From Bemisia tabaci (Eukaryota > Arthropoda > Insecta > Hemiptera > Aleyrodidae): DNA of 64,000 nucleotides. A program made the translations under genes and the position numbers. The stretch lies in NCBI RefSeq assembly GCF_918797505.1, contig NC_092799.1, forward strand, positions 27,156,382-27,220,381, read 5' to 3'. This document shows positions 36,297 through 64,000 of this stretch, one piece after another (within the stretch, counting starts at the first letter, position 1; each line of letters starts with the position of its first letter). A model generated the notes under the pieces. That model did no database searches. It worked only from the letters and a program-made list of their open reading frames with translations, and was not told the DNA's origin.

Positions 36297-36301
<5 letters not shown>

Positions 36302-36771: not shown

Positions 36772-38199
36772 CTACTTAAAATCCAATAATGGGCGCAGTA
36801 GTAATTTTTGAGCGGCAGATGAGATGAAAATGTCCAGTTGAGCGGGAGCAGTCTCTTGAGAGGCGAGAAATGCAGGACGTGATTGCTCATTTTCTATTCC
36901 GTCCGCATATGTGCGGAGTAGATTCACCGAATTCTGAAACATACGCTTAAAATCCAACGATGTAAGTAAGCGGTCGTCACTAATTTCCTGTTTTTCTATA
37001 GTTGCATGCAGTCGCTTTATCAAGTTGTCGATCGGCTCTTGGATTAAAGTCATCAAGCCAGAGGATAGAAAATTTGATTTTGCAGGGAATCTTTTCCGTT
37101 CCTCCTCGGTTGAACGTAGAGGAAGAGAACCATCAACGTCACGACGCCAACGAACGTATCCCTCGCCGTCTCGTGCGACTGCTGTCAAAAGGCGCAAAAG
37201 ATAAAAGAAAGCCTCTGTGAATGTAACGTTGTACGCGCTCATAGTTATGATGACAAGAGCCGTTAGGTGCGGTGCGGCCCAATAAACGCGGGGAGCGTTT
37301 ATTTTCTTTATGATCGTTTCTCGTAAGTTCATTATTGGATCACTGAAACAGGAATACAAAGATAAGAAATCGAATGACATAAATTGCGGTGATGAGTATT
37401 TCGCGTATTCAGGCGAGATGCTTAAGTGCTTATGTTGAATGTTTTCAGTGATTCTCGAATGGAACAATTTTGTACCGTCAATCGAATAGCCGGTAGAAAT
37501 TACTTCGAGGCAACTAACGATCTTTCCTGATCCTTTTATCTGTTGGTAATGAGAGAGACAAACGTTACACGGTAAGATTTGATCGATGTTATAAAGAATA
37601 AGAACGAAATCGGACAATGAAGATATCGAAGTTTCGCTGGCGATGCCAATTGATCCGCTCCCATCATCGTCTCTTAACGACAACTGCACGAGGATCGAAA
37701 GTGCATGTAAAAAGCCCCAATATAGATGACCCCATACAGGGACGGTATAAATATTGAAATTCAGTATTAACTCGTGTTTAACTAGGCCGAATTTGGCTCG
37801 GAATCGATCTACTAATCGTTTCAATATCGCCACGTATTCGTGGGACGGGTTTATGTTACCAATTTTTCGATAATGATCGACGAAAGTCTCCATTTCGTTA
37901 AACAATTGCTCTGCAGACTCGGTTAATTTATTCAACGAATAAACCCATTCGTTCGCAATCGTTGTTTCAAAGATTTGTCTCATCAGTTCTTCTGCGTTAG
38001 AAAACGCAACTGGAAGGATTTCTTTGCATTTTAACTCTCTGTTTGTCAAAAATTTCGTCCGTTCGCGTGACGAAGATAAAATCATTTCACCCTTATAATG
38101 CTCAACAAGGTTTTCCGGTCTGGAATTGAGCGCCTCTCCCAAAATCGTATTTTCCATTGTCAAATTTCTTCCTCTTTTTTTACCTTTCTCCTTTGTCAT
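36772..38199 (-). CDS. P33/Ac92-like sulfhydryl oxidase (endogenous virus-like)
   Basis: 475 residues, intact. Two features point to the Erv1/P33 flavin-linked sulfhydryl oxidase family: the helix motif VWGHLYWGFLHALS (residues 155-168) and the redox pair CNVC followed by LSHY (211-214), separated by a hydrophobic Ser/Asp-rich stretch. Enzymes of this kind oxidise cysteines to disulfides, and the P33 branch is conserved in baculoviruses and nudiviruses. Baculovirus P33 is about 260 residues, so this protein is much longer, with added N- and C-terminal parts of unknown role. It is transcribed away from the + strand ORF at 38853, with 650 bases between them. No intron signs. Family assignment is from motif recognition, not alignment. 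Confidence 0.7.
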   Translation of the reverse strand: MTKEKGKKRGRNLTMENTILGEALNSRPENLVEHYKGEMILSSSRERTKFLTNRELKCKEILPVAFSNAEELMRQIFETTIANEWVYSLNKLTESAEQLFNEMETFVDHYRKIGNINPSHEYVAILKRLVDRFRAKFGLVKHELILNFNIYTVPVWGHLYWGFLHALSILVQLSLRDDDGSGSIGIASETSISSLSDFVLILYNIDQILPCNVCLSHYQQIKGSGKIVSCLEVISTGYSIDGTKLFHSRITENIQHKHLSISPEYAKYSSPQFMSFDFLSLYSCFSDPIMNLRETIIKKINAPRVYWAAPHLTALVIITMSAYNVTFTEAFFYLLRLLTAVARDGEGYVRWRRDVDGSLPLRSTEEERKRFPAKSNFLSSGLMTLIQEPIDNLIKRLHATIEKQEISDDRLLTSLDFKRMFQNSVNLLRTYADGIENEQSRPAFLASQETAPAQLDIFISSAAQKLLLRPLLDFK

Positions 38200-38852: not shown

Positions 38853-40715
38853 ATGGATCTGAACTCTGAGAAAGCTGTGTTATTTCCACATGGTTTACAA
38901 CCAAAGGAGATCGATATTTATCCCGATCAAAATTCGGAGGAAAAACTCTTTCCTCTGATTCTTACCCAACAACAAACATCCCAAACCAATTTCCAGCACC
39001 AAACGTACGTTCCAGCACAATACGGATCAGTCAATGTTAATAATCAACAGCTGGACACAACATCAAATTCAATGCAAGGGTCATCTTCCAGTGCGGTCGG
39101 ATTTGATATCAGCAATTCTATGAACGAGGTGTACGGTCAAGGAATGAACAAATACGTACCTGGACCAATCTTACAAGAAATGTTTTCACCAGATGTACAA
39201 CGCCATCTGCAAAATCTTCAATGTAACGAACCTGCCTCAGTGATAACATCTGATGAAAAGCCCCGTGTAATGCGTGATATTGTCATTACAAAAGATCCGA
39301 CGGAAGCACAAATACAAGCAACTAAAATTCTGGAAGAAGAAATCGGTATCAGCAAGTTGTTTGATGAATGGAAAACATTAAATCTCTTGGATGATCCTCA
39401 ATATCTCTCAGAGTTATATACAGATTTCCCGCTTATTTGCACCGATAAAGATAGAATATTCAGTTATTTTCTGAAACTGTACAGGACCAAGTACATTGAT
39501 TTGATTAAAAAAATTCCAGATTCTGAGAAGGAATTGATCGTCAAGGTTGCTATACTCGTTTACTCTTCCGAAGCAGCTTTGAGACCTCTGATTTTTAACA
39601 AACCGCTTGAAACGGAAATAAAGTCAATTTGTGAAAGGGATCCGAGAACTTTTGGAGTCAAAAAAAGCATTCACGAACAAAAAGGTAACCCAGAGGAGAT
39701 CAAATTGAATCCTATTTTTGACGGCATTAAACTTCCAGACGATCCATTAAATCAGAAGTTGCTCATCAAGCACCCAGCTTTAACTCTAAATATAATCAAG
39801 GAACAACCTCTCTTGTTCAAAATTGGAAAAATCTGGGATAGCGGTACGTCACCGCTTTTTTCTCTTTTGACTACAAACATATTCAGAGACATGGTCGGCA
39901 AATACAGCACAACTCTAGTCGGACAGAAGGACGTGAACAAAACCAAGAAGGGTCTTAGGGTTGAGTTCAAAAATCCAGCAATTTTACAGATCACAGAACG
40001 CATCGTGAAAGACATAAGCATTTACAACGGGGAATTACCCGAGAAAGCTGTCACATGGTGGATGAATGTTTTGGACAAGCCTCTAGATAAACATTTTAAC
40101 CGGATCAACTTAAAAAGGGAAAATATCCAAATTGATTTACGTAACCCGACGGAAGAAATAAGAAAAGGAAATATAAATATGACTTCGAATATGTATTTCG
40201 TTGCAGTAAAGTCGTCGTCTATTTTCGATATGACAAGTGTTGCAGAAATTGCGTCGTTTTCCGAACCATGGCTATTCCTGCCGCTATCTGTGCTCAATTG
40301 GTCGTCATCCAAAAGAAATTTTTCGGACGCGGAAACAAAGAAGATGAAAGAGAATTATAAATTCATGAACGACTATTACGATAGAATCACGGAAGAATTG
40401 GACGCAGAAATTAATCTTTTGAAACGGAAAGATGAGCAATTGAAAGGATTAAACGAGGACATTCACTCTTCAAAAAAACCAAAGGTTCTGCTGCAGTCAT
40501 CCGACCCTCCGGAATCAAACGAATTGCACGAAGATATTGATTATTCAAAACAACAAGATGAGGCATTGGATCGATTAAACGGAGAGAAATCTTCAAAAAA
40601 ACCAAAAGTCCAACTGAATTCATCCCACTCTCAGGAAGCGGAAGAATTGAACGAAGATGATAATTCTTCAAAACAACAAAATGAGGATTTAGATGGATTA
40701 TACGAAGACGCTTAG
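38853..40715 (+). CDS. Unrecognised virus-like ORF with C-terminal 42-residue repeats
   Basis: 620 residues; I do not recognise the family. The N-terminal 150 residues are Gln/Ser/Asn-rich and probably disordered, the centre (about 150-520) looks globular, and the tail holds tandem units of about 42 residues, each with SSKKPKV, which looks like a basic nuclear-localisation-type motif. Two and a half units are in frame. The same repeat continues after the TAG at 40713 with stop codons in place of Lys and Asn codons, so the present C-terminus is probably a truncation. It is intronless and on the opposite strand to the P33-like gene. Confidence 0.6.
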   Translation: MDLNSEKAVLFPHGLQPKEIDIYPDQNSEEKLFPLILTQQQTSQTNFQHQTYVPAQYGSVNVNNQQLDTTSNSMQGSSSSAVGFDISNSMNEVYGQGMNKYVPGPILQEMFSPDVQRHLQNLQCNEPASVITSDEKPRVMRDIVITKDPTEAQIQATKILEEEIGISKLFDEWKTLNLLDDPQYLSELYTDFPLICTDKDRIFSYFLKLYRTKYIDLIKKIPDSEKELIVKVAILVYSSEAALRPLIFNKPLETEIKSICERDPRTFGVKKSIHEQKGNPEEIKLNPIFDGIKLPDDPLNQKLLIKHPALTLNIIKEQPLLFKIGKIWDSGTSPLFSLLTTNIFRDMVGKYSTTLVGQKDVNKTKKGLRVEFKNPAILQITERIVKDISIYNGELPEKAVTWWMNVLDKPLDKHFNRINLKRENIQIDLRNPTEEIRKGNINMTSNMYFVAVKSSSIFDMTSVAEIASFSEPWLFLPLSVLNWSSSKRNFSDAETKKMKENYKFMNDYYDRITEELDAEINLLKRKDEQLKGLNEDIHSSKKPKVLLQSSDPPESNELHEDIDYSKQQDEALDRLNGEKSSKKPKVQLNSSHSQEAEELNEDDNSSKQQNEDLDGLYEDA

Positions 40716-41451: not shown

Positions 41452-44179
41452 CCTTATACTAGATGCTTTTCATTTTTGATTTACTAATCTTATTTTATCT
41501 TTCAAGTAATGAATAGAATAAGTATTGGAAATTCCAAGTTGATGAAGTATGTATTAATTTTCCCGCAAAAAATACTTTGCTAACTGTATACAATGAGAAA
41601 TATTCTGTTTCTATATTAACAAATTTTAGTTTTACGCATTTTGACTACAATTTTACAAACTTTTACAACGTAACAACTTTTTGACTTAGACAATAACCCA
41701 AGGCAATTCACGATGGTGCAGGGTGCACATCTTCCCTGTTTTTACAAGTATTCAAAATCATCCATATTGTTCATTTCTACGCAGAAATATTAAGGATGAA
41801 TATTTGTAACAAATTACAGACTAAAGCAGACACCTTTTTACCAGCTAAATAGTTAAAGATATGCACGAACTTGGCAATGTTGGCCAGGGTATATGCTGTT
41901 TGGTCGGAAAAGTCCTCAATTTCGCTACATTGCTTGATGAGCTAAGTTGTTGGACATGCAACATCTGATCATCCCTCATTTAGGTAGTTTGAAATTGTTA
42001 GCCACTTCAGCCACTTGGGGGTATTCAGTTTCAAAATTATGTATAACCGCTTGAGCTATACAACCGCACTATATCATATGAGTGATTTGACATGCATCAC
42101 AAACGTCCTAGTTTAATTTTCAATTTTCAAAAATTTGGAGCTCTTATGCCTGCTCTACCTCAGATTAAAGGCAGTTTTTTTTCTTTTTTTTTTTTTTTCG
42201 GGGATGAGGGGAAAAATTCGCTACAGTGCCCCCATCATGAGGGTCGCCAAGACGCTCCTCATGAAAAGGGCCCACCGAATACCGGGACGGCAACGACCAT
42301 CAGCTGGTGAAGAGCCGCCGAAGCGACCCCTAACCGACCCGACCGCTGTGAGATGGGAAGACCCGGTTATGTGGGGGTGAAGCACGCCGCTGTGTTCCGT
42401 ACCCACTAAACGACCCCTCCAGGCCACACTTCAGTTGAGATTAAAGTTTTCAGTGACCTCTTAGGCTAAATTGAGGCTTTTGATACGCTGAATATGGAGA
42501 CATGTCAAACTCATCCTGTACTCTAGGTTTAACTGCGATTTTCAAAAATTCTGACGCCTCAAGCCCCTCGGGGCAGTCTTTTTCGAAAATCATTTAAAAC
42601 TTTACCTATCCAACTGCGCTCGGTACTCTGAGTCTTTGGACGCGTCTCACTTACATGTTTGTGAATTTTTAGATTTTCAAATACGTTGTGCCCTCAGCCG
42701 ACCCCCTCTCCCCCACCCCTTATTACGGACACTGAAAGTCAATATTTTCAGGAACCAACCTAACCCTTTTTAATAGTGATGTGCACTCGGAGTTTTTGGA
42801 CGTGCCTGACTTACATGTTTGTGAATTTTTTGATTTTCAATTATGATGAGCCCTTAGTTCTAAGGGCTCTTAGTTAACTAAAGTTCAAGAATTTCAAAAA
42901 ACTCGTGATCTCGGTTCTTTGCTCTCTTATTGATTTCATTACTTCCCTTGCCTTGTTATTACTCAATAGTTTTGAGCATCAAAGGACGGGTCGTTGCTCT
43001 TATCTCCCGTTTTTGTCACTTTTTTCGTTTAAACTACAATTCTTACTGAGCCTCTCTCATAAATAACATTTAGCGTTATTCTTTTTATCGTGCGTTATCG
43101 TTATTTCCCACTAAAGAATTTTAATTTTATGGACTTTTTATCGAAAGATAAATTTTTGTTTATATTTTTGCATGCGCAGTGTATTCTGATAAGCATGGGA
43201 AAATAGTGCTTCAGATCTGTGGCTGCCTAACATATTTTTCTCCTTAAACAAAAATTTTGAAAAGGTGAGTAACGCGTATTTCTAAACCACCAATGGGTCC
43301 GTGAATGGAATAACACCACACCAAATAATTAATGCTGTCGATAGTGCATATTTGTTATTGTGATACTTAGTCTTTGACAAGTGTAAAAATTTAAAAAGAG
43401 CCTCAACTCTCCTTGTATAGATTTTATCGTTTTGTACGTCCGTGGACGAAGCGCCCTAATTTCGAAGTCTTACCTCCCTCGGTGGAGCGAATCAATGGTA
43501 CCTACAGGTCGAACATAGGCCATTTTAGCTAATCCCCTGTCCGGCAACTGAAAAGCGATCCCTAAAGGTTTAATTTAAAGGAAATGGCATTAGTTTGGGC
43601 AATACCTCATTGACGTTTGCACTCCACATACCACCAAACATGGGTATTACGCGAATCCCTAATTTCAGCAATTTTTCATAAAATTCTTCCCTCCACCTCA
43701 GCTAGTGTACCACAGCTTCTGCAAATGTAAAAATCGACGATTGATTGTTAATTGGCAGAGTTTGAAGGACATTTACCTCTTTTAAAAGTATTCTTTATAT
43801 TAACTTTCACGGTCGTCACGCTCGTTGAAAGACATCCATCTCAAAAATACTGGAAGAATAGTTTAAGTAAATATTTAAATAGGTACCTGCTCTCAAGAGT
43901 TTCAAGATCTTTTGTGTACGTATAGGAAAATTTGTAGGGCCCTTAGGAAAATGATAGTCCGGAGAAATCGGCGACCAGAATTTACCAATCCAGCTGTGCC
44001 GATACTTTTTCTCTTGAATTTCGCAGTTACATGCTACCCTTCCCTCACGGATATGTCATTGCTGCATACAGTCAAGCAAATCTATGTTGCGTGGGTCTTT
44101 ACAAAATAACTTTATATTTAATTGTGTACCATTGAACACACTCGCTCTGATTTTTCCATTTAATTTTGTTCTTCACAGG
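41452..44179. other. Intergenic stretch
   Basis: Holds a T-rich run near 42175-42199, a GC-rich island at 42225-42425 without recognised coding potential, and two diverged direct repeats (42617-42694 and 42780-42854, sharing acttacatgtttgtgaattt). No gene recognised. Confidence 0.5.
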
Positions 44180-45837
44180 ATGATGAAAGGCTTCTTCTTG
44201 TTGGGACTCCTTTTGATTGGAAGAACAAGTACTATCTTCGCTAATTCACCACTTCCAACTCATTTGCATCGGCTGAGCGTACCTACAGTTCCTAAACTAA
44301 CTGTGATTCGTGAATCGTACAATGCAACTCTCTCAGTCGCGCCCGAATCATTGGAAGGAATAATTGGTCGCAGACTCAAGTTCTCCACATTCTGTAAACA
44401 AGCTTGCCTCACTGGTTGTAATCATTGTGAGAAAAAACGTGTCGGACTTCCACCATCGCTCGTTGAGCTTCTGGATTGGCACAAAAAAAAGTACTGCACC
44501 ATCGGTAAAGTGTGCCGGCCCAGTGACAAGCCTTATAACTTCGGCGATTGCTTTCGCTCTGACGCCAGAAATGCCACGAAGAGGATGTTTTTACAGTATT
44601 CGTTAACAGTGGAATTCGGCAACTGAAAGAAGACAAGGATTGCCATGCGAGTTGCTTCGGCGATACATGCATTCAGGACTTCGCGTGCTCTATCGGGAGC
44701 GATCGGTACCCTGTGCATCTTTTCTCGACCGATGATTCCGTTCAAGCCAAGATAATAATTGGGAACGATAATACCTACATCATTAATAGCACAGCTCATA
44801 AATTTCACATATCACTCGACAGTGCGTCTACTCTTGCGTTTATCCCGGAACCCAAATTTGAGATCAAGCGATATAACATAAGTGTCAGGTGTTACAAAAA
44901 GCTTGACACGGCTCCGCTATGTCAGTTGCCCGAAGATCCCGACTTCCCCGACCTCGCCAACACGATTATCTCCCTAAATGAAGGTAAAGACGCCGGGTCA
45001 GTGCGCAACGTTCATCTGAAAGTACACCAGCTCATACCCGACATCCCTGACGACGAAATGGTTTATTTACTTGATTCCGATTCGAGCGTGAAATCGATAA
45101 AACGAAGACGGCGTTACGCGTCCCAACGAATTCCTGACCCTAAATCTTTACGAAATGCTCTCATCTACCTAGCTCGTGAATCTGCCTTCAACGACTTCCG
45201 TATAATCAAATCCCTCAGCGATGTTCAAAACGCCTTCCTTCAGTTATTAAAGTCCGTATCCTACAGGAATCCTGAGGTTTTAGGTAGAGTTATAGGACAC
45301 AACAAACAGACTTCATGGTTCTCCGAGAATCTGTTCTTTTTTCAAGGCCAGAATTTCAAAACAGCAGCTGACTCAAATTCAAACTGTAACGACCAGGAAC
45401 AGATTTTCAAAGACGGAGCCTTTGTGGAGAAGATGAATGATGATATTTGTTATAAAGGAGCTGATGTTTCACACGACATTGAAAACGTCAATCTCTTCGA
45501 AGACTCTTCAATCGTCTTTTCGGACGTAAGGATTCAGAAAGTTGCGGCACGTCCGGATGAAAATTTTGAATACCCTAAACTAAAATTGGATTGGTACGAA
45601 GAATCTCCATGGTATACTGAAAAAACGGAAAGTGAAGGAACATCGAAAATTAAACCCAACATAGTGAGAACGTTCCTGATAGAAACAGGACCCACCATTG
45701 CGTGGATTCTTCTTTTGGCGGAACTTATCAAATGTTTTATTAAATTTACCAAGCAAACCTGCCTGCTATGCTTATTGTTATTATTACTGGGGTTTTCGTT
45801 CTCAGGAATAGTGGGATTTCTTCACTTTTTCCTGTGA
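44180..45837 (+). pseudogene. Virus-like membrane glycoprotein, split by a frameshift
   Basis: Two ORFs in different frames appear to be one gene of about 550 codons. The first, best started at the ATG at 44180 or 44183, opens with a signal peptide (MKGFFLLGLLLIG) and is Cys-rich up to a TGA at 44624-44626. The second frame is open from 44563 and continues the Cys-rich region, then a basic cluster KRRRR (45100-45114) that looks like a furin-type cleavage site, and ends in two hydrophobic segments (last 55 residues). Four N-glycosylation sequons are visible. The layout fits a type I envelope protein. I cannot assign a family: baculovirus F-like, PIF-like or another fusion-protein class all remain open. 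The break lies between 44563 and 44626. Confidence 0.6.
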
Positions 45838-48031: not shown

Positions 48032-49249
48032 ATGGTGGGGAAAACGTCTATCAAACATTTAACGCGATCCATCAGGGAAACGTTTAGCAACGGGTCAGAA
48101 GCAGCACGTGCGGAAATCGAAACGCTCTTAAGGAATGCCGATACAGGAGTGGATATTGCGGATGCAGCTTTCAGAAGAATTAAGTTAACGAAGAGAAATG
48201 GTGTCCTGTTTGCCAACGAAGTTCACTTATCAAAGTTTGCAAAAATTCTACGTAGCGGTGATCTGGTCCGTCTACTGAAAGTTGCAGGAATAAAACACAC
48301 AGTGACGGTTGCTCAAAAAAAAGCATTCACTGATATAATGGGCGAAACAGCCGAAACAACCCTCCATTCGATAAAGGAAATGTCGCGAAGCTTGAAGAAG
48401 AAAAAACCTCATCTAGACGTTACGGATGACACAATGAGCTCCATGTCGAAAGCAGCTAAAGCAGAAGTCCAGGAAATTGAGAAAGCCGTCTCGAAAAAAT
48501 TTTACAAGAAGCCGCTTGTAAAACTCACATTGGGAACTATCCTCGTCACCTCGACGGGATTCGTCATGCATGCTCTTCGCGAACGGAAAGGATGTTGGAT
48601 GATAACTACAATTGATCAAAAAAATTCATCGTGTAAAATTCAAGCGTTCTCTTGTGACAAAAGCATTTCTGACAAATCGGTGATGTGTAGGACTCCATCG
48701 ATCCAAAATTATTATAACGACACGTTACAACTTATGAACATTTTTCAACAGGGCAATGAGAAAGAATTAGCTAAACTAAAAAATTACCTCACGATACCAA
48801 CAGATCAGTTCGATTTGATGAAACTACTAGAAAATAATTTTGATGATATTTCCAAGTATTTCCAAGATCCGAACAATCGTTTACAGTTGGAACCTTGTTC
48901 TTTGACCGATAATAGAATCGAGGGCGCGGGCAGGGAGATTTGTCGCATGTGCGACCCGGCTGCAAATCCGAAAAGTACTGCCTTCATCAATCCAATGCAG
49001 TACGCTGAAAATATTACTTTTGTCTGTGTCGCAAACCCGAACGTGTTGGATGTCATCAGTGATATTGTTGTAACTACTGGAGTGAATCTTTGGGACACGG
49101 TAAGCTTCCCTGGAGTGCTACGAACTTTTAAGTACGTCGTTCTCGCTATTCTAATATTTATGCTTCTAACTTCAATTGTTATTCCTATTTACCGAATTTT
49201 CAATGCACCACAACAACAAGGATACATCCTTCATCAAGACGAGGCGTAA
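48032..49249 (+). CDS. PIF-5 / ODV-E56-like envelope protein (endogenous virus-like)
   Basis: 405 residues, intact. PIF-5 (ODV-E56) is an occlusion-derived-virion envelope protein needed for oral infection in baculoviruses and is also found in nudiviruses. Supporting features: a hydrophobic segment at about 162-182 followed by GCWM (187-190), a Cys-rich ectodomain-like region, the motif CRMCDPAANPKS (304-315) followed by YAENITFVCVANP (324-336), and a C-terminal transmembrane segment at about 368-390 with a short tail. Cys spacing and the C-terminal anchor match the family; baculovirus members are about 350-380 residues. It follows the 41-residue membrane ORF. No intron or frame break. Whether it is expressed in the host cannot be judged. 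Confidence 0.7.
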   Translation: MVGKTSIKHLTRSIRETFSNGSEAARAEIETLLRNADTGVDIADAAFRRIKLTKRNGVLFANEVHLSKFAKILRSGDLVRLLKVAGIKHTVTVAQKKAFTDIMGETAETTLHSIKEMSRSLKKKKPHLDVTDDTMSSMSKAAKAEVQEIEKAVSKKFYKKPLVKLTLGTILVTSTGFVMHALRERKGCWMITTIDQKNSSCKIQAFSCDKSISDKSVMCRTPSIQNYYNDTLQLMNIFQQGNEKELAKLKNYLTIPTDQFDLMKLLENNFDDISKYFQDPNNRLQLEPCSLTDNRIEGAGREICRMCDPAANPKSTAFINPMQYAENITFVCVANPNVLDVISDIVVTTGVNLWDTVSFPGVLRTFKYVVLAILIFMLLTSIVIPIYRIFNAPQQQGYILHQDEA

Positions 49250-49444: not shown

Positions 49445-50707
49445 TTATTCATATTTACGGTTTCGCGATGACATCGGAATACGAAATATAGTTTTACAGC
49501 CATTCTTCACGCAGAAAACATTTATACCTTCGTTTTCAACTAGTGAATCATTTCGATGAACCACATTTAAAGCCAAATTTTTAAACACAGCGACGGTCTG
49601 TAACCAACGGCCGGCCAAATTAGGAGAATCGATCAGGACGGGATAAACTTGGCGATTATGTATAAACCCCACCACCGCACCTTCAGTGATGCCTTGCAGC
49701 ACGTTGAGTAGAGCGTTATAATCTCTCTTTGCGAATCCGTAAAAACACCGCGCCACTCCATGCCATGAAAACCAAACTGATCCATGAGGAACAGAGAACC
49801 AAAAAGCATAATTACGGAAATCAAAAGATGCCTCGTGGCTGAATTTTTCAATTTCGCACGATGATGCCTGTTTTGCAAAAACCTCTTGACATTGAACTAC
49901 TGAAAGCTCAGGTTCATCGAGAGTCGTCAAAGCGTAAAAACTTTCGATTATTCGTATATGATAATTTGAGATCCATTCGATGAACTCCTCTGGCCGAGAC
50001 TTCTCCTTGGTCATCGATGTTAAAATGAACAGAGCTTCCAAGTAGCCAATTGCCTCGCTGTTGCAGAATTTTGATGCGTTTGCGAAAATGCCAAATGTTT
50101 TATCGATAAGCAAGTGCTTGTAAAACACAATAGAACTTGCATGTTTACCGATGAATGTCTCTAGTAATTTGAACTCAGCAATACTGTGAAAATCATTGAC
50201 GAAGACAGGGTATTGTCCGTGAGTGTGATATTCACCGAAGGCCATCAATATGATCGTCATTCCCAAATCACACTTCGTGAGTTGTTCATTTTTAAACAGC
50301 GATTCTGAGTAGGCTTTCAAATCTCCCAATTCTTGTGTAATTACATATCCGGTTAAATATGCAGTCTCGTTTACTTGAAGAGTAATTTTTTTCACTGCAT
50401 CATTTCGCGCATCGTCGACAATGACGATAAAAGGTTCACTTCTGCCGATCATATAGGATGGACACTTATTCCCTTCGAAGTCAGCATAACGGTCAAAGTT
50501 TGGATGGCTTTTGCGAGGTAATAAGTTTCCATCGTCGTATACGTTATACAGGAATACTCTCGTCGGAGGATCGTGTTTTTGTAAGAACTCAGTGACTGTA
50601 TCGACGACCATTGTGCTTTTGAGATTTTCATGAAACGCACGTTGTTTTATTAGGACATATGCACGACGTATCCATCGACGGAAGAGATCCTTTGCAAAAA
50701 TGATCAA
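49445..50707 (-). CDS. Unrecognised 420-residue virus-like ORF
   Basis: Intact, no recognised motif, signal peptide or transmembrane segment. It starts with a basic amphipathic stretch (MIIFAKDLFRRWIRRAYVLI) and otherwise looks like a globular, probably soluble protein (Cys scattered, Trp/Tyr/Phe-rich C-terminal half). It lies between the PIF-5-like gene and the broken kinase, tail to tail with the former. Length and intronless structure match its neighbours. Confidence 0.5.
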   Translation of the reverse strand: MIIFAKDLFRRWIRRAYVLIKQRAFHENLKSTMVVDTVTEFLQKHDPPTRVFLYNVYDDGNLLPRKSHPNFDRYADFEGNKCPSYMIGRSEPFIVIVDDARNDAVKKITLQVNETAYLTGYVITQELGDLKAYSESLFKNEQLTKCDLGMTIILMAFGEYHTHGQYPVFVNDFHSIAEFKLLETFIGKHASSIVFYKHLLIDKTFGIFANASKFCNSEAIGYLEALFILTSMTKEKSRPEEFIEWISNYHIRIIESFYALTTLDEPELSVVQCQEVFAKQASSCEIEKFSHEASFDFRNYAFWFSVPHGSVWFSWHGVARCFYGFAKRDYNALLNVLQGITEGAVVGFIHNRQVYPVLIDSPNLAGRWLQTVAVFKNLALNVVHRNDSLVENEGINVFCVKNGCKTIFRIPMSSRNRKYE

Positions 50708-50833
50708 TGACAGTTAATGCACGCAATTGCATTGGCTAAAGTAAACCTCCTTTGTGACAGAGGAGCTTCAGCGGCAGTCATAAGACCTTTGTAGGTTAGC
50801 TGTAGTCAAAAAATCCGGAAAAAGTATAATCAT

Positions 50834-52271: not shown

Positions 52272-53207
52272 ATGGCCAGAAATAAGGGTCTTGTGCCTTT
52301 TGCCATCGCCGCATTGGAAGATCAGCATCGGAACATAATTTTCGAGCGCGAATATGTACCTAACTTATTCACGTATGCGCTTCCGTATCGGGTTCGCCTT
52401 CCTATAGATTCATTTGTTCAAGGAGAGGAAAGATTCATTCGTGATCGCCTAGGTCAGATCGTTCCAATAACGATCCGTGCGGTGCCTGATGGAGTATGGG
52501 CCAGGGTGAATCGCGCCGTGCGAAAAAAAACCGATCTCATAGACGATCAAGGTTATGCGTACGGTAGATTGTTTGCTTTTACGGATGTAAACCTTGATGC
52601 TGAGCTCCTGAACACTCTGAAAATAAACGAGACTGTCGCAACTCACCCACTAAAATCGTTAAACATACCGTATGTGCGGACCGTTCAAAAGGTTATACCG
52701 GAGCATAATTTTTACACGAGCTATGTCGATCCACGCTTTGGTGAAACTGTGATTGCTAGTACGAACAATGCGGAGGATATGATCCTGCTCGAGTACCGCT
52801 ACTTTCAAGATAGATTCACGGAGAGTAATGTCTACTTTGACTCACGCGCGGGTGCGATGTACCAATTCGTTCCACCTTCTAATCACGCTCTAATAATATT
52901 GATAATGCCCGGTAATTTCACTTGCATCGATGACCATAGCGGATATTTTCATTTTCCGGAGAAGGATTTGATATTTTGGGTAAAATCTAAGGTTCATTTG
53001 TCCGGAATTCGAAATAATGATGCTACTCTCTCACGGACACACGTAAGCAGTATAAAAACGATCGATGAATATTTAATGCGAATAATTCGTTCCTTTTTCA
53101 AAATAATGAGAATATCCCGCGTTTACTCGACCAACGGTGAACAAGTTGTCGGTCATGATCGATACATAACTGTAACGGTTGGTGATCCCACGAACATATA
53201 CGCTTAA
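52272..53207 (+). CDS. Unrecognised 311-residue virus-like ORF (possible structural protein)
   Basis: Intact, begins MARNKGLVPFAIAALEDQ, no signal peptide or membrane segment, beta-rich in appearance. I do not recognise a motif. Size and lack of enzyme signatures would fit a capsid-type protein such as the VP39/31K group of nudiviruses, but this is a guess. It is followed 126 bases later by another ORF on the same strand. Confidence 0.45.
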   Translation: MARNKGLVPFAIAALEDQHRNIIFEREYVPNLFTYALPYRVRLPIDSFVQGEERFIRDRLGQIVPITIRAVPDGVWARVNRAVRKKTDLIDDQGYAYGRLFAFTDVNLDAELLNTLKINETVATHPLKSLNIPYVRTVQKVIPEHNFYTSYVDPRFGETVIASTNNAEDMILLEYRYFQDRFTESNVYFDSRAGAMYQFVPPSNHALIILIMPGNFTCIDDHSGYFHFPEKDLIFWVKSKVHLSGIRNNDATLSRTHVSSIKTIDEYLMRIIRSFFKIMRISRVYSTNGEQVVGHDRYITVTVGDPTNIYA

Positions 53208-53333
53208 AAAGTTGATTCCAAGTGCCGATGGATAATATAGTATTGAATATAAGCGGAAAGCTAAAGTACACGATCAAGCTTTTGAATACCTTGACGGCCT
53301 GAAAAGTTTAAATCCAACTTTATCGATCCAAAT

Positions 53334-55079
53334 ATGCCTAGGCGGAAGCACTACTTCAAAGTACCTCAAGCAAAACGGCATGCTCCTGAGAGAGAGTCGC
53401 GCGTTGTCGATTGCGCTCTCACAGGCTCACCGGAAGGGATTTCTAATTCGTCTACATCACTAGCATTCGAAGGGGATTCGCGCGAGAAACCTCCTCTTTT
53501 TGCATGCTCATCTCAACGACGTCGAATTGATTTTTCGAGTTTACAATCGGAAAATCACCCCGAGCAAATATTCGAATCGCCTCCGGTCCTTTTCGGAGGT
53601 ACACTTTCATATAATCCAATAAAATTTCCAAGCAGCCCATTAGCAAGGGGTGACTTCGAACCGGATACCTTAATCGTAGAAAGTTGCAAGTTAAATCATA
53701 CAATTCAGCAAAAACCAAGCAAACTTGCGGATTTCCTAGAGGAAAAAACCCTTGGACCGAAGGAACTTGAAGCTCATATCAAAGGAGGAGAATGTTCTGA
53801 GGCGATTGCTCGACCAAAAGTGGACGAACTTTGCGATCCGCCGTTCAAAATCGACTCTGAATATGAACAGCTCGTGGCTCACTCAGAAAGGCCAGTATTT
53901 GTCCCGTTAATGAAAGAAATACCGTTAAAAACTACTGCAAAATTAACACAACATGTTACTAATGAGGCTTATCCGTTAGAAGTTAATAAAATAGAAGATT
54001 GGGTGTACGTTTCAATACCAATGATTTTCGTAGATGCAGAGGAAAATGGTCGGGATCGTCCTGAAATGAATCTTTATCAAATAGAATATAAGACTTTGAA
54101 AAAAATTATGTCTCAAGCCTTAGAGATAGATTCAGCGTCAAACTCTCGTCAGTACGAAATTTTCCGAGAAAAATTCAAGATCCAAATGAACTTTTTGCGA
54201 CTCTCAGAAACTGTAACTTCAAAAGATCAGTCAGAATTAGACTGTTGGAAGTCGCTCGTGAAATACATGGACATTACTGAAACGGTTTTATCGATGATTG
54301 AGAGTCATGAAACTGACGAGGAATATAAAGATGTATGTGGTGAAGGGATCAGTTTCGATATAATACGACGGTTCACAAATGATCCTCGCACCCACATTTT
54401 GAAAGATTACGAAAAGTGCTCTTGGAGAGGAATAGTTTCATACAGTCAGTTGAAAAATAAACGTGATCTGGTGGAACAAGCTAGATTAGAGAATAACGAT
54501 ACCGATTTAAACCGTATTTACTATATACTCGGTCATTTCCTTCGCACCATTCTCTTTGACAAATCTAAATTGTGCAATACGGTTGCAAAAATTTTCAATA
54601 TAACTCTTGTCTTTGTTGAAATTGCGCAACAATCAAAACCTGTCTCCGGCTACAGTTTAGATACTTGCGTGATTAATAACTTAGCAGGTTTTTTAATTGA
54701 CATTTTAATTAGAACTCGCAACATCAGCAGATGGCGCCGATTAAAGTATTCCAAGCTGATGTTGAGTGATATGGCATACAATTATGACAGAGGTCATAAT
54801 ATCATGGTTGCGTTATGTCAGCTTGAAACTCCCAGAGAGCGTATTCAAAAACTAATAGGGATTTTGAAAAAGCACGAGAAACTAAAGCAACTTTTTTCGA
54901 TAAAAATGTACGATGAATACGAGCGAATCTTAGGTAAACAAGAGAGGGAGATCTTCGGGGAAAAATATTATTTTTTCGATTTAGTTTTTTTAAAAAACTT
55001 TTTAGAGTCCGACATCTTTCAGAGACTGATTAAAGATCCACAACAATATATAGAATTGCTGCAAAGTGAAAAACTGTAA
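53334..55079 (+). CDS. Unrecognised 581-residue virus-like ORF
   Basis: Intact. The first 180 residues are Ser/Pro/Glu-rich and probably disordered, starting with a basic patch (MPRRKHYFKVPQAKRH). The remainder is mostly helical and charged, with possible coiled-coil stretches near the end (LIGILKKHEKLKQLF). No family recognised. It is the last ORF of the left virus-like block and is followed directly by a 301-bp tandem duplication. Confidence 0.5.
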   Translation: MPRRKHYFKVPQAKRHAPERESRVVDCALTGSPEGISNSSTSLAFEGDSREKPPLFACSSQRRRIDFSSLQSENHPEQIFESPPVLFGGTLSYNPIKFPSSPLARGDFEPDTLIVESCKLNHTIQQKPSKLADFLEEKTLGPKELEAHIKGGECSEAIARPKVDELCDPPFKIDSEYEQLVAHSERPVFVPLMKEIPLKTTAKLTQHVTNEAYPLEVNKIEDWVYVSIPMIFVDAEENGRDRPEMNLYQIEYKTLKKIMSQALEIDSASNSRQYEIFREKFKIQMNFLRLSETVTSKDQSELDCWKSLVKYMDITETVLSMIESHETDEEYKDVCGEGISFDIIRRFTNDPRTHILKDYEKCSWRGIVSYSQLKNKRDLVEQARLENNDTDLNRIYYILGHFLRTILFDKSKLCNTVAKIFNITLVFVEIAQQSKPVSGYSLDTCVINNLAGFLIDILIRTRNISRWRRLKYSKLMLSDMAYNYDRGHNIMVALCQLETPRERIQKLIGILKKHEKLKQLFSIKMYDEYERILGKQEREIFGEKYYFFDLVFLKNFLESDIFQRLIKDPQQYIELLQSEKL

Positions 55080-55089
55080 AGCTTTTAAC

Positions 55090-55690
55090 ATCACAACGGA
55101 AGATCCTTCGTCAACCACGTTACAATCATTGCACAGAGATGTGCAGCAACTGATGGTAGTGCTCTCGGAACCAACCACTCATTTCCGAAAAACCGCAAGT
55201 CATCAAATCGCATTTAAACGACACAGACAAAAAGTTTCACAGTAATGAAAGTAAATTCCTCGATTCTTTTTTTTTCTTCTTTTTTTTCTTTTCTTTTTGA
55301 TACAAACGGCTCGGAAAAATCTGAAGAAATTACTGTATGATCAGGCGATACTGTAATTTCTGAAAATGCAAGAATTTGAAACATGTTTACATCACAACGG
55401 AAGATGCTTCGTCAACCACGTTACAATCATTGCACAGAGATGTGCAGCAACTGATGGTAGTGCTCTCGGAACCAAACACTCATTTCCGAAAAACCGCAAG
55501 TCATCAAATCGCATCTTAAACGACACAGGCAAAAAGTTTCAGAGTAATGAAAGTAAATTCCTCGATTCTTTTTTTTTCTTCTTTTTTTTCTTTTCTTTTT
55601 GATACAAACGGCTCGGAAAAATCTGAAGAAATTTCTGTATGACCAGGCGATACTGTAATTTCTGAAAATGCAAGAATTTGAAACAGGTTA
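55090..55690 (+). repeat. 301-bp tandem duplication, two copies
   Basis: 55090-55390 and 55391-55690 are nearly identical, including a (TTTTTTTTTCTTC) tract and the block cagcaactgatggtagtgct. Only a few substitutions differ, so the duplication is recent or an assembly artefact. Confidence 0.9.
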
Positions 55691-56839
55691 ACAAGCTCCT
55701 TTATAACATATCAATAGGGTTTGCAACCAATAAGTAGTATTTATTTTTTTTCGATTATTTTTGTTATTGAATCAAAGTTTCACTCAAGAAAAAATGCAGC
55801 AAAAGAGTAATAGGGAGATTGAAAAACACAATTTAATGCTGTTTTTTTTAATTGATCACTTTGTATGAACAAAGTCTGAATGCTTTCTGCTGAGTTAATG
55901 AAGTTAATTTTGCTAACAATATTCGAGGAAAATATAATACGATCGTTGGTATTTAAGTGATGAAATAAATAGTGACAAACGGGGGTTATATTTTAAAAAA
56001 ATAAGGCGTTGGTAGAATAGTACTTGACCCGCACTGTTCTGCGAGGAAACAAGCCCCCCCCCCCTCCCTTGAAAAAAGCCTAAAAATTCCATTGGAATTT
56101 TAAAGATTGAATTAGAGTATTCTGAAGTATGTGTGTGTGTCTGCTGGATTCTTTTCAGCGATGCGCTCATTTTTCTACTTTGCGTTTATATCTCCGTTGA
56201 CAATAAATGATTTTTGATTGCTACGAGCCAAGATCCACGATTCAGTTTCCGAGCCGTAACGTTCCAGTCGGTCATTGATAGTTCCCTTGCTCGGAAGCCC
56301 CCTGCCGAGCCCCTTCCCAACCTGGATCTGGGAGCCGCCTCTAAATTACTTGGACGAAGTCACGCTTTTGTTTGTTGTTTATTGTTTATAAGATTCGTCC
56401 GGATGAGGGCTTGGCCTTAGTGACTAGCACAAACAGCCACTGACAAGTTGGTTGGTTGAAGATCTAGAGTAGTTTAGGTGTTTTAGATATCCGCGCAGTA
56501 CACTTTAATAATTATTGGTAGAAGTGAAAGTTCCTACGTAATATTTAAGCGTTCGTAATTCAGTCTTGCCTCTTCATTGCACCGTTTGCCTTAGCGCCGC
56601 CGTTACGAAGTCTCCTTCGACAATATCCCGTTTTTGCTTACTACTTAAAATACAAAAAAGTGCGCCTTTTCTCATCTCGTTCATCGTTAGCGAAAACAAG
56701 GATTGTGAACATTCAAGGAAGTGTTTTTTATTTTTTCTTCTCTTTTTTCCTAAGAAAAATTAATCATTCATCAACATTTTTTCATTTTGACGAGACATTT
56801 ATTTTTTCTTGTCACGACGAACAGTCTACCGAGTTTTTC
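55691..56839 (+). promoter_or_regulatory. Upstream region and probable 5' UTR of the bHLH gene
   Basis: Contains a C run at 56057-56066 and a GC-richer stretch at 56220-56420. No other gene. Promoter elements cannot be placed confidently. Confidence 0.35.
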
Positions 56840-57328
56840 ATGGAGAAGGAACAGCCCTCGTTCCTATCCGCCGATTGGCACAAAGACGGCTATTCCGACT
56901 GGTGCCACACGCCTAATCCGGAGAATTTACGTCGTATGATAGCTGAAGCGGAGAATGTCCTCAAAAAGGAGATGAGTTCCCCGAGTCCCGAATCCTCGGG
57001 TATTCCCCAGAAACAGACGCTCCAACGCGATGACCCGGTCGACGATGAGGACTCCCTGGAAGGCTTCGACGAAGAGAGCTTCTCCTCGAGCAGTAGGAAC
57101 AAGCACCAGCGGTGCTGCTGCAGTGCCAAGTTTGAGAATTCGGACGTCATGAAGAGAACGATTTTGAAGTGGGACAGGGAGAGACAGAGGAGTCGAGCTC
57201 TCAACGATGCTTGGGACAAACTCCGCAAAGTCCTCCCTTCGCTCGGCAACGACCGGCGACTTACCCGGCTCGAGGCAGTGCAGATGGCGATAAATTACAT
57301 AAGCGCTCTTTACGATCAGCTTTGGTGA
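56840..57328 (+). CDS. Atonal-type bHLH transcription factor
   Basis: 162 residues from the ATG at 56840 (the upstream in-frame ATG at 56660 would add an unlikely Phe-rich leader). An acidic, Ser-rich N-terminal region is followed by a bHLH at residues 105-160: basic part KRTILKWDRERQRSRALNDA, helix 1 WDKLRKVL, loop PSLGNDRRL, helix 2 LEAVQMAINYISALYDQL. The PSLGNDR...QMA.YI.AL pattern is that of Atonal/Amos/Cato proneural factors, which bind E-boxes as heterodimers with Daughterless. As in those, the bHLH lies at the very C-terminus and the gene is intronless. The usual Asn two positions before RER is Trp here. The stop overlaps gtgagt, so a splice donor at 57324 is a less likely alternative. 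It lies between two virus-like blocks. Confidence 0.75.
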   Translation: MEKEQPSFLSADWHKDGYSDWCHTPNPENLRRMIAEAENVLKKEMSSPSPESSGIPQKQTLQRDDPVDDEDSLEGFDEESFSSSSRNKHQRCCCSAKFENSDVMKRTILKWDRERQRSRALNDAWDKLRKVLPSLGNDRRLTRLEAVQMAINYISALYDQLW

Positions 57329-59639: not shown

Positions 59640-61541
59640 TTAGAACCCCAAATTCAAATCGTTCGGTAAGTTTTCTTTCGTGAACCTGTCTTGAAGGTTT
59701 CTCAAAAAATCTTGACCGCCAGAAAATCTGACGAGCAAATCTATAAGTTGATGCCTGGATCTCGGATCTTCAATGTAGGCCATTACTTTTTCCGCAGGAA
59801 TTGTCCCGGAAGTAGTCTTCTTCTCCTCAGTAGAGGAACTTTCGTAAGGTTTGCGATCAACCTCTCTCACTAATTTAGCAGTTGATGGAGCGGATATTAT
59901 CTTTTCTTGATCCTTGACATTGAGGAATGATTCTTTATACTCAACAAGGATGGCTGTTTCAAAAAGAGCAATTTTATCTGTATTTGCTGCGCAGTACACA
60001 TTCTGTCCAATCCACACCGAAGGGTCGATCAAATCGGACTGTTTTAGATTTTGGATCTCGATGAGTTTTCCGTTCAGTTCAATTGTCGGAAGGTTCGTTC
60101 CAAGCCTTCTAATCTTCTCCCCAGTGTCATTATTGCAATTCCGAATAGCCGCTCGTTGAAAATTTAACGGTATAACACCGAAGAGTTGAGCTATGGATCC
60201 AAAGATTGGCACGTTAAGTTTGTAAATGAGACGTGCAGCATCATCATCAAAACAAGCCAGCAAAATATTGTTTCTTTGCATACCTATTGCCGCCATATTA
60301 TGGTTCGGTCTTCGAAAAATATACGATTCATTACCGGTAGGTCCTGAAAATTTACGTATATAATTACCGTCATAGTCGTTGCTTTGGAAGTCTTCGACAA
60401 CAAGCATTTCCGGTAGTAACCAACGAGCACATTCCAATCTCTCATCATGGCTTAGACATGAAAATTTTTGCACCAATTCTTCTACATATTCGTTTGCCCA
60501 TTTTTTTTTTTTACTACTCACAGAAACGTACAACAGATCGATCACTAACGTTTTCGGAGTTAAAATTTCTACAAATATGTAGTCAATACCGTTACTAGAT
60601 AACAATTGTAGAGTTTTCTCCGAAAATTCTCGACAAATGTTGGGGTGTGGTAAAACAAAACGCTGGCCTTTCAAACTTAACACGCAATTCGGGCTCAAGA
60701 ATATTAGAGCTCGTTCTTTGTCGTTAATGGCTATTTTCCTGTACCCGTCCATGACTTGTGTATTATCGGCATCCGTTTTGTAAATTGGAAAACGGTTGTT
60801 CAAATTTTTTTCAGGATCATTTTCGTTTAAATACATACCCTCATACCAATCACGTGGGAGATTTAAATCATTCTGCACGATGAATTGCAATGCCTCTACA
60901 TCATCTTCTTCGCATCTTGAAAAGCTGTTAGCAAAATTCCGCGGAGAACGAAGATATTCGATGAGTATATTATTGCGAGCGGTTTTAAGAATTCCTTTTT
61001 TGTTAAAATTCCTTCCGCTTGAACTCTTATTGTTAGCGCCGTTACTGTTGTTTACATTTTCCGCCCGTCGGCTAGCCGCTCCAAATAATTGTTTCGATAC
61101 GTTTCTACCGTTAATATTAGGAGCATTGTAGGAATCGATATCAAATTGATTCACGTGTTTGAAATCTTCGATTCCAACGTAGCGTTTATGGGTCGCGAGA
61201 AAGTATTTGAGATGCTCACGCGAGAATAGTAAATTGAAACCGTTAGTTTCGCATATGAGAAAAGCATGACTGATGAAACGAGCGAGGATTCGAGCACGAT
61301 CTTCTGAAGTTCTTTCTTCATACAATCGATCTATCTCAAAAGTTTGTTGCTCTTCGAAAAATACTGCTTTCTTATTACGATCAAATTTAGAAATTCCGCG
61401 TCTTTCTTCATCGTCAACGAAAATTCTTTTACAATTTGTTTCATAGTTCGAAATAATATCGATCTTTTGGTTTGGTTCCTTCTCGTATTGCAAGAGGAAA
61501 TTTACGATCATCGATTTGAGTACTCGAACAAATCGGTGCAA
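59640..61541 (-). CDS. 633-residue virus-like ORF, possible nucleotidyltransferase fold
   Basis: Intact. An Asn-rich linker at about 140-180 separates an N-terminal part from a larger C-terminal part. Around residues 255-395 the order KTDADNTQVMDGYRK, IDYIFVEILTPKTLVIDLLY, then YDGNYIRKF recalls motifs I, III/IIIa and IV of the ligase/mRNA-capping superfamily to which viral LEF-4 belongs. The canonical KxDG signature of motif I is not seen, so the assignment is weak and the enzyme, if it is one, may be inactive. The start at 61541 overlaps the end of the upstream repeat protein by 34 bases in another frame. No other recognised domain. Confidence 0.5.
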   Translation of the reverse strand: MHRFVRVLKSMIVNFLLQYEKEPNQKIDIISNYETNCKRIFVDDEERRGISKFDRNKKAVFFEEQQTFEIDRLYEERTSEDRARILARFISHAFLICETNGFNLLFSREHLKYFLATHKRYVGIEDFKHVNQFDIDSYNAPNINGRNVSKQLFGAASRRAENVNNSNGANNKSSSGRNFNKKGILKTARNNILIEYLRSPRNFANSFSRCEEDDVEALQFIVQNDLNLPRDWYEGMYLNENDPEKNLNNRFPIYKTDADNTQVMDGYRKIAINDKERALIFLSPNCVLSLKGQRFVLPHPNICREFSEKTLQLLSSNGIDYIFVEILTPKTLVIDLLYVSVSSKKKKWANEYVEELVQKFSCLSHDERLECARWLLPEMLVVEDFQSNDYDGNYIRKFSGPTGNESYIFRRPNHNMAAIGMQRNNILLACFDDDAARLIYKLNVPIFGSIAQLFGVIPLNFQRAAIRNCNNDTGEKIRRLGTNLPTIELNGKLIEIQNLKQSDLIDPSVWIGQNVYCAANTDKIALFETAILVEYKESFLNVKDQEKIISAPSTAKLVREVDRKPYESSSTEEKKTTSGTIPAEKVMAYIEDPRSRHQLIDLLVRFSGGQDFLRNLQDRFTKENLPNDLNLGF

Positions 61542-64000
61542 AGGTACATTGCATGGATTTGACTTTCGTTTGCCTCCCGTTGCTGGCGTGATTCCATCAA
61601 TTCCACCGTATAAAGAGTCTGTAGCGTTTCTTTTCGTTCCAACTTTTTCCTGCCTGTAGGTGATTGACGTTCAGCATTGTGGACGTGTTGAGAACGCTTT
61701 TGAAATCTCGAGCTATAATTTTCAACATTCCGTTTTTCTAGATCGGATGCTCCTGCAATACTTGAAACAGGAAGCGTCTTTTGAACGGATTCTACATGGA
61801 GAGCGGAGCATGTCGAACTCATTTGTAGAGGGCCGTTCCTGTTCTCAACAAGCGCATTGGACCTTGTTGATACACTTTTATTGTCGTCCGCAATTAAGTT
61901 TTTGCGAAGTTCTTGTTTTTCAAAGAGAGCGTCATTCGTCATTTCGGGCGTCGAAAAACGATCATCCTTTCTTCCGACTAGGGTTCCGGTATATTCTGCT
62001 TGGCGATCGAAATCCATAAGACTCGAGTCGTCGCTCGGATTAGACGGTGCTAAAATTGTCATGTCAGGTTGCTCGTCCTCTCTCGATGCAAGCACTGAAG
62101 CAGCTTCGGCCATTTTCGCTCGAAGAAAAACAGACATTCTTCCGCCGGCAGGGTATCTGTCAACTTTGTTGTCGTTTTCAAGAATATCGTTTTTTACGAT
62201 TTTCGTTCGGGACTCAGGACAGGTGAATTCAGTGGCGGCTCGATTTTTCTCGTCCGCCTCAATTAGTAGAGAATCTTCAGTGTTTTTCCCTGAAGCGAAA
62301 GCTGGAGTGTCCTTCTGAAGCGAAATGCTAATAACACTTTTGTCGGTAGTCTCAGACTTTGAATCTTTCCGGACGGAATCGAAGTACAATTCTGAAGGCG
62401 CCGGAAGACGTACGGTTGTTTTATCATGATCGACCACCGGAAGTATTTCGGCGTTCCTCTCAACATCCATTTTTTGGCAAATTCCACCGTAGAAAGTGTC
62501 GGTAGCGTTTCTTTTCATTCCAAATTTTTCACTGCCTGTAGGTGATTGACGTTCAGCATTGTGTACCTGTTGAAAATACTTTTGAAAACTCGAGCTATAA
62601 TTTTCAACATTCCGTTTTTCAAGATCAGACGCTCCTGCCATACTTGAAACAGGAAGCATCTTTTGAACGGATTCTACATGAAGTGCGGAGCATGTGGAAC
62701 TCATTTGTAGAAGGTCGTTTCTGTTCTCGACATGCGCATTGTACCTTGTCGATACACCAATATTGTCGTCCGCCATTAAGTTTTTGCGGAGTTCTGGTTT
62801 TTCAAAGAGAGCGTCATTCGTCACTTCGGCCGTCGAAAAACGATCATTCTTTCTTCCGATCAAGCCTGTGGAATGCAGTTCTAGCCCTTGAGTTCCAGTA
62901 AATTGTGCTTGGCGATCGAAATCCATAAAACTCGAGTCGTCGTTCGGATTAAACGGTGCCAAAATTGTCATCTTAGGTTGCTCGTCTTCTCCCGATGCAA
63001 ACACTGAAGCAGCTTCCGCCATTTTCGCTCGAAGAAAAGCGGACATTCTTCCGCCGGCGGGGTATTTGTCAACTTTGTTGTCGTTTTCGAGAATATCGTT
63101 TTTTACGATTTTCGTTCGGGACTCAGCACAGGTGAACTCAGTGGCGGCTCGATTTTTCTCGTCCGCCTCAATTAGTAGAGAATCTTCAATGTTTTTCCCT
63201 GAAGAGAAAGCTGGAGTGTCTTTCTTAAGCGAAATGTTAATAACACTTTCGTCGGTAGTCTCAGACTTTGAATCTTTCCTGACGGAATCGAAGTACAATT
63301 CTGAAGGCGCCGGAAGACGTACGGTTGTTTTATCATGATCGACCACCGGAAGTATTTCGGCGTTCCTCTCAACATCCATTTTTTGGCAAATTCCACCGTA
63401 GAAAGTGTCGGTAGCGTTTCTGTTCATTCCAAATTTTTCACTGCCTGTAGGTGATTGACGTTCAGCATTGTGTACCTGTTGGAAATACTTTTGAAAACTC
63501 GAGCTATAATTTTCATCATTCCGTTTTTCTAGATCGGATGCTCCTGCCATACTTGAAACAGGAAGCGTCTTTTGAACGGATTCTACATGAAGTGCGGTGC
63601 CTGTGGAACTCATTTGTAGAGGGCCGTTTCTGTTCTCGACATGCGCATTGTACCTTGTTGATACACTAAAATTGTTGTCAGCGTTTAAGTTTTTGCGAAG
63701 TTCTTGTTTTTCAAAGAGAGCGTCATTCGTCACTTCGGCCGTCGAAAAACGATCATTCTTTCTTCCGATCCAGCCTGTGGAATGCAGTTCTAGCCCTTGA
63801 GTTCCAGTATATTGTGCTTGGCGATCGAAATCCATAAGACTCGAGTCGTCGCTCGGATTAGACGGTGCCAAAATTGTCATGTTAGGTTGTTCGTCTTCTC
63901 TCGATGCAAGCACTAAAGCAGCTTCGGCCATTTTCCCTCGAAGAAAAGCAGACATTCTTCCGCTGGCCGGGTATCTGTCAACTTTGTCATCGTTTTCAAG
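61508..64000 (-). CDS. Tandem-repeat protein, 303-residue units, partial at the window edge
   Basis: The frame is open to the right edge. The ATG at 63955 is preceded in frame by codons matching the end of a repeat unit (LENDDKVDRYPASGR), so it is internal and the gene begins outside. Units: 63955-63047, 63046-62138 and a partial third from 62137; period exactly 909 bases. Each starts MSAFLRxKMAEA and contains DEQPxMTILAP, FSTAEVTNDALFEK, VSSMAGASDLEKRN, GGICQKMDVERN and PAGGR. Units one and two agree at roughly nine residues in ten by eye. The protein is hydrophilic, Ser/Asp/Lys-rich and probably disordered; no family recognised. The third unit has an in-frame 27-base deletion and, near 61650, a one-base deletion that gives it an unrelated tail of about 45 residues. 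Confidence 0.65.
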   Translation of the reverse strand, partial: LENDDKVDRYPASGRMSAFLRGKMAEAALVLASREDEQPNMTILAPSNPSDDSSLMDFDRQAQYTGTQGLELHSTGWIGRKNDRFSTAEVTNDALFEKQELRKNLNADNNFSVSTRYNAHVENRNGPLQMSSTGTALHVESVQKTLPVSSMAGASDLEKRNDENYSSSFQKYFQQVHNAERQSPTGSEKFGMNRNATDTFYGGICQKMDVERNAEILPVVDHDKTTVRLPAPSELYFDSVRKDSKSETTDESVINISLKKDTPAFSSGKNIEDSLLIEADEKNRAATEFTCAESRTKIVKNDILENDNKVDKYPAGGRMSAFLRAKMAEAASVFASGEDEQPKMTILAPFNPNDDSSFMDFDRQAQFTGTQGLELHSTGLIGRKNDRFSTAEVTNDALFEKPELRKNLMADDNIGVSTRYNAHVENRNDLLQMSSTCSALHVESVQKMLPVSSMAGASDLEKRNVENYSSSFQKYFQQVHNAERQSPTGSEKFGMKRNATDTFYGGICQKMDVERNAEILPVVDHDKTTVRLPAPSELYFDSVRKDSKSETTDKSVISISLQKDTPAFASGKNTEDSLLIEADEKNRAATEFTCPESRTKIVKNDILENDNKVDRYPAGGRMSVFLRAKMAEAASVLASREDEQPDMTILAPSNPSDDSSLMDFDRQAEYTGTLVGRKDDRFSTPEMTNDALFEKQELRKNLIADDNKSVSTRSNALVENRNGPLQMSSTCSALHVESVQKTLPVSSIAGASDLEKRNVENYSSRFQKRSQHVHNAERQSPTGRKKLERKETLQTLYTVELMESRQQREANESQIHAMYLCTDLFEYSNR

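Follow-up and report, generated by a model that had tools for sequence, protein, structure and literature searches.

Does the run of large intronless genes in the right half of this 64,000-nucleotide stretch of the whitefly Bemisia tabaci (the window; C7:27156382-27220381, on the 52.8-Mb contig C7 of a 610-Mb assembly in 151 contigs) represent a fragment of a virus, or did a viral genome enter the insect chromosome more or less whole, and has the insect kept it for its own use? A sequence-only reading of the window had proposed an integrated nudivirus-like genome fragment, lying beside host repeats, with some genes broken, others open and certain ones perhaps kept. The analysis reported here bears out an origin from a nudivirus-like virus, the adjacency to host repeats and the coexistence of intact and broken genes. 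The island is no small fragment, however, and selective retention gained no firm support. We consider it likely that the island is a large, probably nearly whole nudivirus-like genome (class Naldaviricetes), endogenised as one block and largely open, with its service to the host unproven.

Beyond the window, 80 kb of left-hand and 200 kb of right-hand sequence were read in 10-kb pieces (right pieces L003-L022), and a 112.5-kb left flank served as host sequence for comparison. The chromosome changes character near window position 36.7 kb, from host sequence rich in repeats to closely spaced intronless open-reading frames (ORFs) on both strands. Nine ORFs of at least 300 amino acids (aa) are present in the 27.3 kb of island within the window, compared to none in the 112.5 kb of host flank. 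Stop-to-stop frames between 36.7 and 64 kb include ones of 830, 676, 632, 594, 475, 424, 422, 415, and 333 aa, exceeding both the maximum of 233 aa in 200 first-order Markov simulations of this segment and the host flank, where the longest frame in window positions 1-32.5 kb is 229 aa, so that the dense packing of large intronless ORFs described earlier is confirmed. The left 80 kb contains 9 ORFs of at least 170 aa and none of at least 300 aa, against 74 and 42 in the right 200 kb, and coverage by ATG-initiated ORFs of at least 140 aa is 53% in the window island, 0-84% in the right pieces, and 0-6% in the left pieces.

The end that the sequence-only reading gave the island, at position 64,000, is only the edge of the window, as viral-type sequence reaches window-relative +286 kb (C7:27193063-27442509, at least about 249 kb), with a possible extension to +325 kb for an island of about 288 kb. 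These lengths follow from viral-type ORFs that continue to piece L031, where a 308-aa ORF at C7:27441583-27442509 shares 30% identity with an F-box ORF of the island, and then from samples farther out, at C7 27456382 and 27480382, which contain long intronless ORFs of 260 and 316 aa without family that are perhaps viral, judged by eye only. The right end was not found in C7 27420382-27481661, of which the place of PIF-1 and three short samples were seen. Far from being a small fragment, the island carries, over at least about 249 kb, four firm pif genes, a DNA polymerase, a 38K-like gene, and two recombinases.

Within the window, the predicted PIF-5 gene (ODV-E56; 48032..49249, + strand, 405 aa, open) was verified by a score over the Pfam cut-off for Baculo_E56 (33.5 bits vs 28.9, E 3.5e-8) and is single copy in the genome. 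To the right, a Pfam scan of L003-L022 that took in every one of the 74 ORFs of 170 aa or more, 53 of which were scanned in bundles yielding families and counts per bundle (some were rescanned singly), placed over cut-off P74 (PIF-0), in two pieces split at a 10-kb reading edge (E 2.9e-25 and 1.6e-35), PIF-2 (E 2e-31), and a DNA polymerase exonuclease domain (E 1.1e-9), whose neighbouring piece contains the polymerase motifs DYVSAYP and VDTDS. Two tyrosine recombinases were also over cut-off (E 6e-7 and 6.1e-9), VLF-1 and integrase not being told apart. PIF-1 is over cut-off at C7:27423378-27423986 (E 3.7e-13), within a 514-aa open frame, and a PIF-4 match was weak and below cut-off (E 0.03). 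DUF705, which we take to be 38K, scored 23.3 bits vs a cut-off of 20.4 (E 5.3e-5), and a 670-aa ORF with CBM_14 just above cut-off may be VP91. At the left edge of the island, the ORF that had been read as a P33-like sulfhydryl oxidase (36772..38199, - strand, 475 aa, open) contains CNVC and WGHLYWGFLH, presumably motifs of such oxidases, while its score against Baculo_p33 stays below cut-off (16.9 bits vs 25, E 0.0059).

In PMC10271883, the pif genes are given as a signature of Naldaviricetes, with eight in the class table, lef-4, lef-8, and lef-9 as a signature of Lefavirales, and 38k, vlf-1, and vp91 as common to baculoviruses and nudiviruses only. PIF-0, -1, -2, and -5, four of the eight class-table pif genes, are over the Pfam cut-off in the island, which also has the DNA polymerase and P33 of the class, the polymerase by its exonuclease domain and motifs and P33 by motifs; the P33 half is the weaker because its Pfam score is below cut-off. 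Candidates for the markers of Nudiviridae are the DUF705 match, the two recombinases of unsettled type, and the CBM_14 ORF barely over cut-off. Ten of the 102 PIF-2 matches (one being the island's own) carry organism names, and all of these are nudiviruses or insects, 38-49% identical: Tomelloso virus (49%), Esparto virus (47%), Apis mellifera nudivirus (46%), planthopper endogenous nudivirus (46%), Oryctes rhinoceros nudivirus (45%), Anthophora retusa (45%), Kallithea virus (44%), Drosophila innubila nudivirus (43%), Fopius arisanus (40%), and Phenacoccus solenopsis nudivirus (38%). When a tree was built from 39 rows and rooted at its midpoint (query, the ten named matches, and 28 unnamed ones chosen among the others, with no baculovirus or hytrosavirus row), the island PIF-2 fell outside a 24-row group of alphanudiviruses, the planthopper virus, and Fopius with weak support (86/87); the tree did not otherwise resolve, and neither did the placement of the island in an earlier 49-row tree. 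A search of viral contigs gave no relatives of PIF-5 or PIF-2.

Several results weigh against a nearly whole nudivirus-like genome. LEF-8 was not found genome-wide at E up to 1, with one candidate scored, and no credible LEF-9 was found, a single match below cut-off on C3 containing four stops. No LEF or P47 appeared in the Pfam results for the 74 right-hand ORFs; for LEF-4 and P47 no genome-wide search was made. The LEF-8 and LEF-9 absences are weak, since the same kind of genome search (E up to 0.001) missed PIF-5. In addition, PIF-5 has no relative among 5.8 billion proteins, where only the query itself was recovered, the DNA polymerase domain piece has no Pfam match, and several ORF-poor stretches lack host-flank repeats, for example L010 (10 kb, window-relative 134-144 kb). 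The island is longer than the 96-232 kb reported for nudivirus genomes in PMC7414434, but it includes inserted and duplicated DNA. A more novel but doubtful reading sees here an almost entire genome, about 249 kb or longer, from a Naldaviricetes lineage not yet described, with a GP64-like fusion protein and without the LEF-8/LEF-9 RNA polymerase, held in a hemipteran chromosome as a single block; if true, such a lineage would be an exception among baculovirus- and nudivirus-like viruses, which as a rule supply an RNA polymerase of their own.

The claim of host repeats beside the island was substantiated at its left edge, where a multicopy host repeat of about 924 bp (35758..36681), with 39 other copies at 95-99% identity on many contigs (copies scored for 40 candidates out of 3878), ends about 90 bp from the P33 ORF. 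The only N run in the window (32539..33038, 500 N), which resembles a scaffold gap, sits 3.7 kb left of the same ORF and could suggest an infecting virus scaffolded into the chromosome during assembly. Such an artefact is very improbable because host repeat and viral ORFs are on the same contig sequence, gap-free from 33039 to the window end, because the stretch 48032-53300 is single-copy in the genome, because a host-type basic helix-loop-helix (bHLH) gene lies inside the island, and because repeats are shared with the host flank, so that host repeats adjoin and interrupt the island without sequence gaps; pieces L003-L030, which include the 200 kb right of the window, contain no N. Repeats in common with the 112.5-kb left flank make up 16-30% of every left piece (8 pieces), are absent from the 27.3 kb of window island, and recur in the right 200 kb as no more than 6 short segments, with one further segment in L031. 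The bHLH gene between viral ORFs, together with ORF-free stretches, gag-like ORFs seen by eye in L015, and one ORF with a DUF7041 match in a bundle of 40, would also fit several insertions, or one insertion split later by host segments. We judge this unlikely, given that host-flank repeats are missing from 55-59.6 kb and from L010, that viral-type ORFs are present on both sides, and that genome searches for PIF-2 and PIF-1 gave one place each.

As another possibility, the virus might have been domesticated, with insect selection keeping many viral genes, for instance to build particles or to supply proteins for entry, which is known from some parasitoid wasps. PIF-0, PIF-1, PIF-2, PIF-5, and the DNA polymerase are open where read, and ratios of nonsynonymous to synonymous substitution (dN/dS) are below one between the 303-codon units of the window repeat ORF 61508-64000 (0.55, 0.52, and 0.50; p = 0.065, 0.003, and 0.0008) and between F-box copies (0.34, p = 1e-4, and 0.58, p = 0.04). 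The constraint in these copies may, however, have acted in the virus before integration, the copies of RING (1.42) and BolA-repeat ORFs (0.83) exhibit no constraint, neither value being significant, and the GP64-like glycoprotein gene is split. One of two F-box copies is broken as well. We hold domestication to be quite improbable, and the selective keeping of certain genes suggested for the locus is not established, as the ratios of 0.50-0.55 may date from viral evolution before integration. We accordingly describe the block as a largely open endogenous virus whose function is unproved.

For this endogenised nudivirus-like genome, we would envisage entry into a germ-line insect chromosome near window position 36.7 kb and inheritance as a single unit, about 249 kb long or longer, after which host transposons would have landed in the block and at its edge. 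Local duplications would have arisen in the block or arrived with the virus, and a few genes, the GP64-like glycoprotein and one F-box copy, would have broken while core genes stayed open. We infer that the virus inserted once and fairly recently (the timing from the open frames only), and that it has no host function; the insertion is probably not old.

The glycoprotein illustrates the breakage that had been noticed, as it is present in two frames, an N-terminal piece at 44018..44626 and a C-terminal piece at 44563..45837, both on the + strand. The N-terminal piece resembles Baculo_gp64, in keeping with the glycoprotein call, yet below cut-off (16.7 bits vs 27, E 0.0032), and along the same stretch it matches PDB 5xea_A, 'Envelope glycoprotein' (E 0.027), which we take to be a Thogoto virus protein. 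The C-terminal piece has a membrane-like stretch at its C-terminus by hydropathy and no Pfam (44623-45837) or PDB match, and its position suggests that it belongs to the same gene. With a score below cut-off, and from the N-terminal piece only, membership among GP64 or thogotovirus glycoproteins was not obtained, and 'GP64-like' may serve as a lead rather than a family assignment. A kinase-like gene had also been proposed and was dropped, there being no kinase family in ten window proteins at Pfam E up to 0.1.

The bHLH gene (56840..57328, + strand, 162 aa, intronless) is of host type, as had been read, with an HLH match at E 3.7e-12 and 59% identity to a host copy on C1 (C1:81386900-81387800) whose bHLH region is presumably atonal-like. 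Its GC content at third codon positions is 0.67, compared to 0.78 in the C1 copy and 0.32-0.46 in 30 other ORFs. Because codon use and the host copy speak against it, a viral origin of this gene was dropped; the gene may have been captured by the virus. The two copies diverge strongly in their basic region, and dN/dS along the aligned part is 0.50 (p = 0.002).

Other large window frames fall to no family in the scans made. A 620-aa ORF with C-terminal repeats of 41-42 aa (38853..40715, + strand; tandem repeat period 123) and a 311-aa ORF (52272..53207, + strand) had no Pfam or PHROG match, and ORFs of 422 aa (49445..50713, - strand) and 581 aa (53334..55079, + strand) had no credible one. A 623-aa ORF (59640..61511, - strand) had no Pfam match and one weak PHROG match (E 0.014), while the repeat ORF (61508..64000, - strand), which continues past the window edge and was scanned against PHROGs only, gave weak matches (best E 0.00019). 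Nothing credible came from the PHROG scan of window proteins, and 39 small ORFs from ORF-poor window stretches gave two weak Pfam matches only. AlphaFold models made without an alignment were set aside, with pLDDT of 29.8 (311-aa ORF) and 37.7 (P33). Two tandem copies of a 302-bp unit are present at 55085..55693. In the host part of the window, long interspersed nuclear elements at 32.5-33.9 kb were seen by eye only, and ORF pieces at 23924-26371 resemble exons by eye, presumably of a host pseudouridine synthase gene. No Rfam families or tRNA genes were found.

To the right of the window, a 1,260-aa ORF has weak P-loop matches and a Walker A motif, an F-box protein is below cut-off, and the bundled ORFs include sina-type RING, BolA, F-box, and AlkB-type families. 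An intronless IAP with two BIR and a RING domain and a multi-Ig-domain protein (L012:2998-4104 and L008:4452-6182) may be host genes that the virus acquired. Two IS1595-type transposase ORFs (L008:7899-9044 and L022:6251-7378) share 46% identity. The RING and BolA-repeat ORFs lie in a tandem duplicated block (L003 6457 to L005 7478) with copies mostly 80-98% identical, and two arrays of tandem repeats of about 200 bp (L019 9772 to L020 1346 and L021 7358 to L022 1315) might be viral repeat regions or host satellite. The late-promoter motif TAAG is not enriched upstream of ORFs (19/68 vs 306/1260 controls). TATAGT, chosen after inspection and resembling part of what we take to be a nudivirus promoter motif, occurs 10 times in sense in the 200 nt preceding island ORFs of 180 aa or more (67 ORFs, two of them duplicates), compared to 2.4 expected and 2 in antisense.

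Nudivirus genes are already known from a hemipteran genome through the brown planthopper endogenous nudivirus, NlENV (PMC9967823), whose PIF-2 is 46% identical to that of the island and differs in grouping with alphanudiviruses, outside of which the island PIF-2 falls at the weak support given above. The alphanudiviruses themselves (Oryctes rhinoceros nudivirus, Tomelloso, Kallithea, Esparto, and Apis mellifera nudivirus) resemble the island in PIF-2 (44-49%) and in their PIF, DNA polymerase, and recombinase genes, whereas the island is chromosomal and longer, and LEF-8 and LEF-9 were not found in it. Fopius arisanus and further parasitoid wasps likewise have endogenous nudivirus-derived genes including PIF-2 (Fopius entry 40% identical); the island differs in that a host function is unproven. 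Nudivirus endogenous viral elements occur in the Bemisia tabaci genome according to PMC12297876, which cites Cheng et al. 2020, and these remnants are possibly the same locus as the island. A few literature searches, with subscription papers mostly outside them, gave no title reporting that a whitefly or other hemipteran carries a large nudivirus block in one piece. Nudivirus elements in arthropods being already known, the island has perhaps been partly reported before, and its length is unusual.

Being set in an assembly of chromosome scale, a contiguous, largely open viral block allows dating as well as gene-by-gene tracking of decay or retention after germ-line entry. Since the known domesticated cases come from endoparasitoid wasps, as stated in PMC10259472, a large block in a non-wasp insect offers a useful contrast. 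PMC12297876 states that no insect DNA virus had been found in whiteflies before its own, and the island in this whitefly records a large DNA virus in that group.

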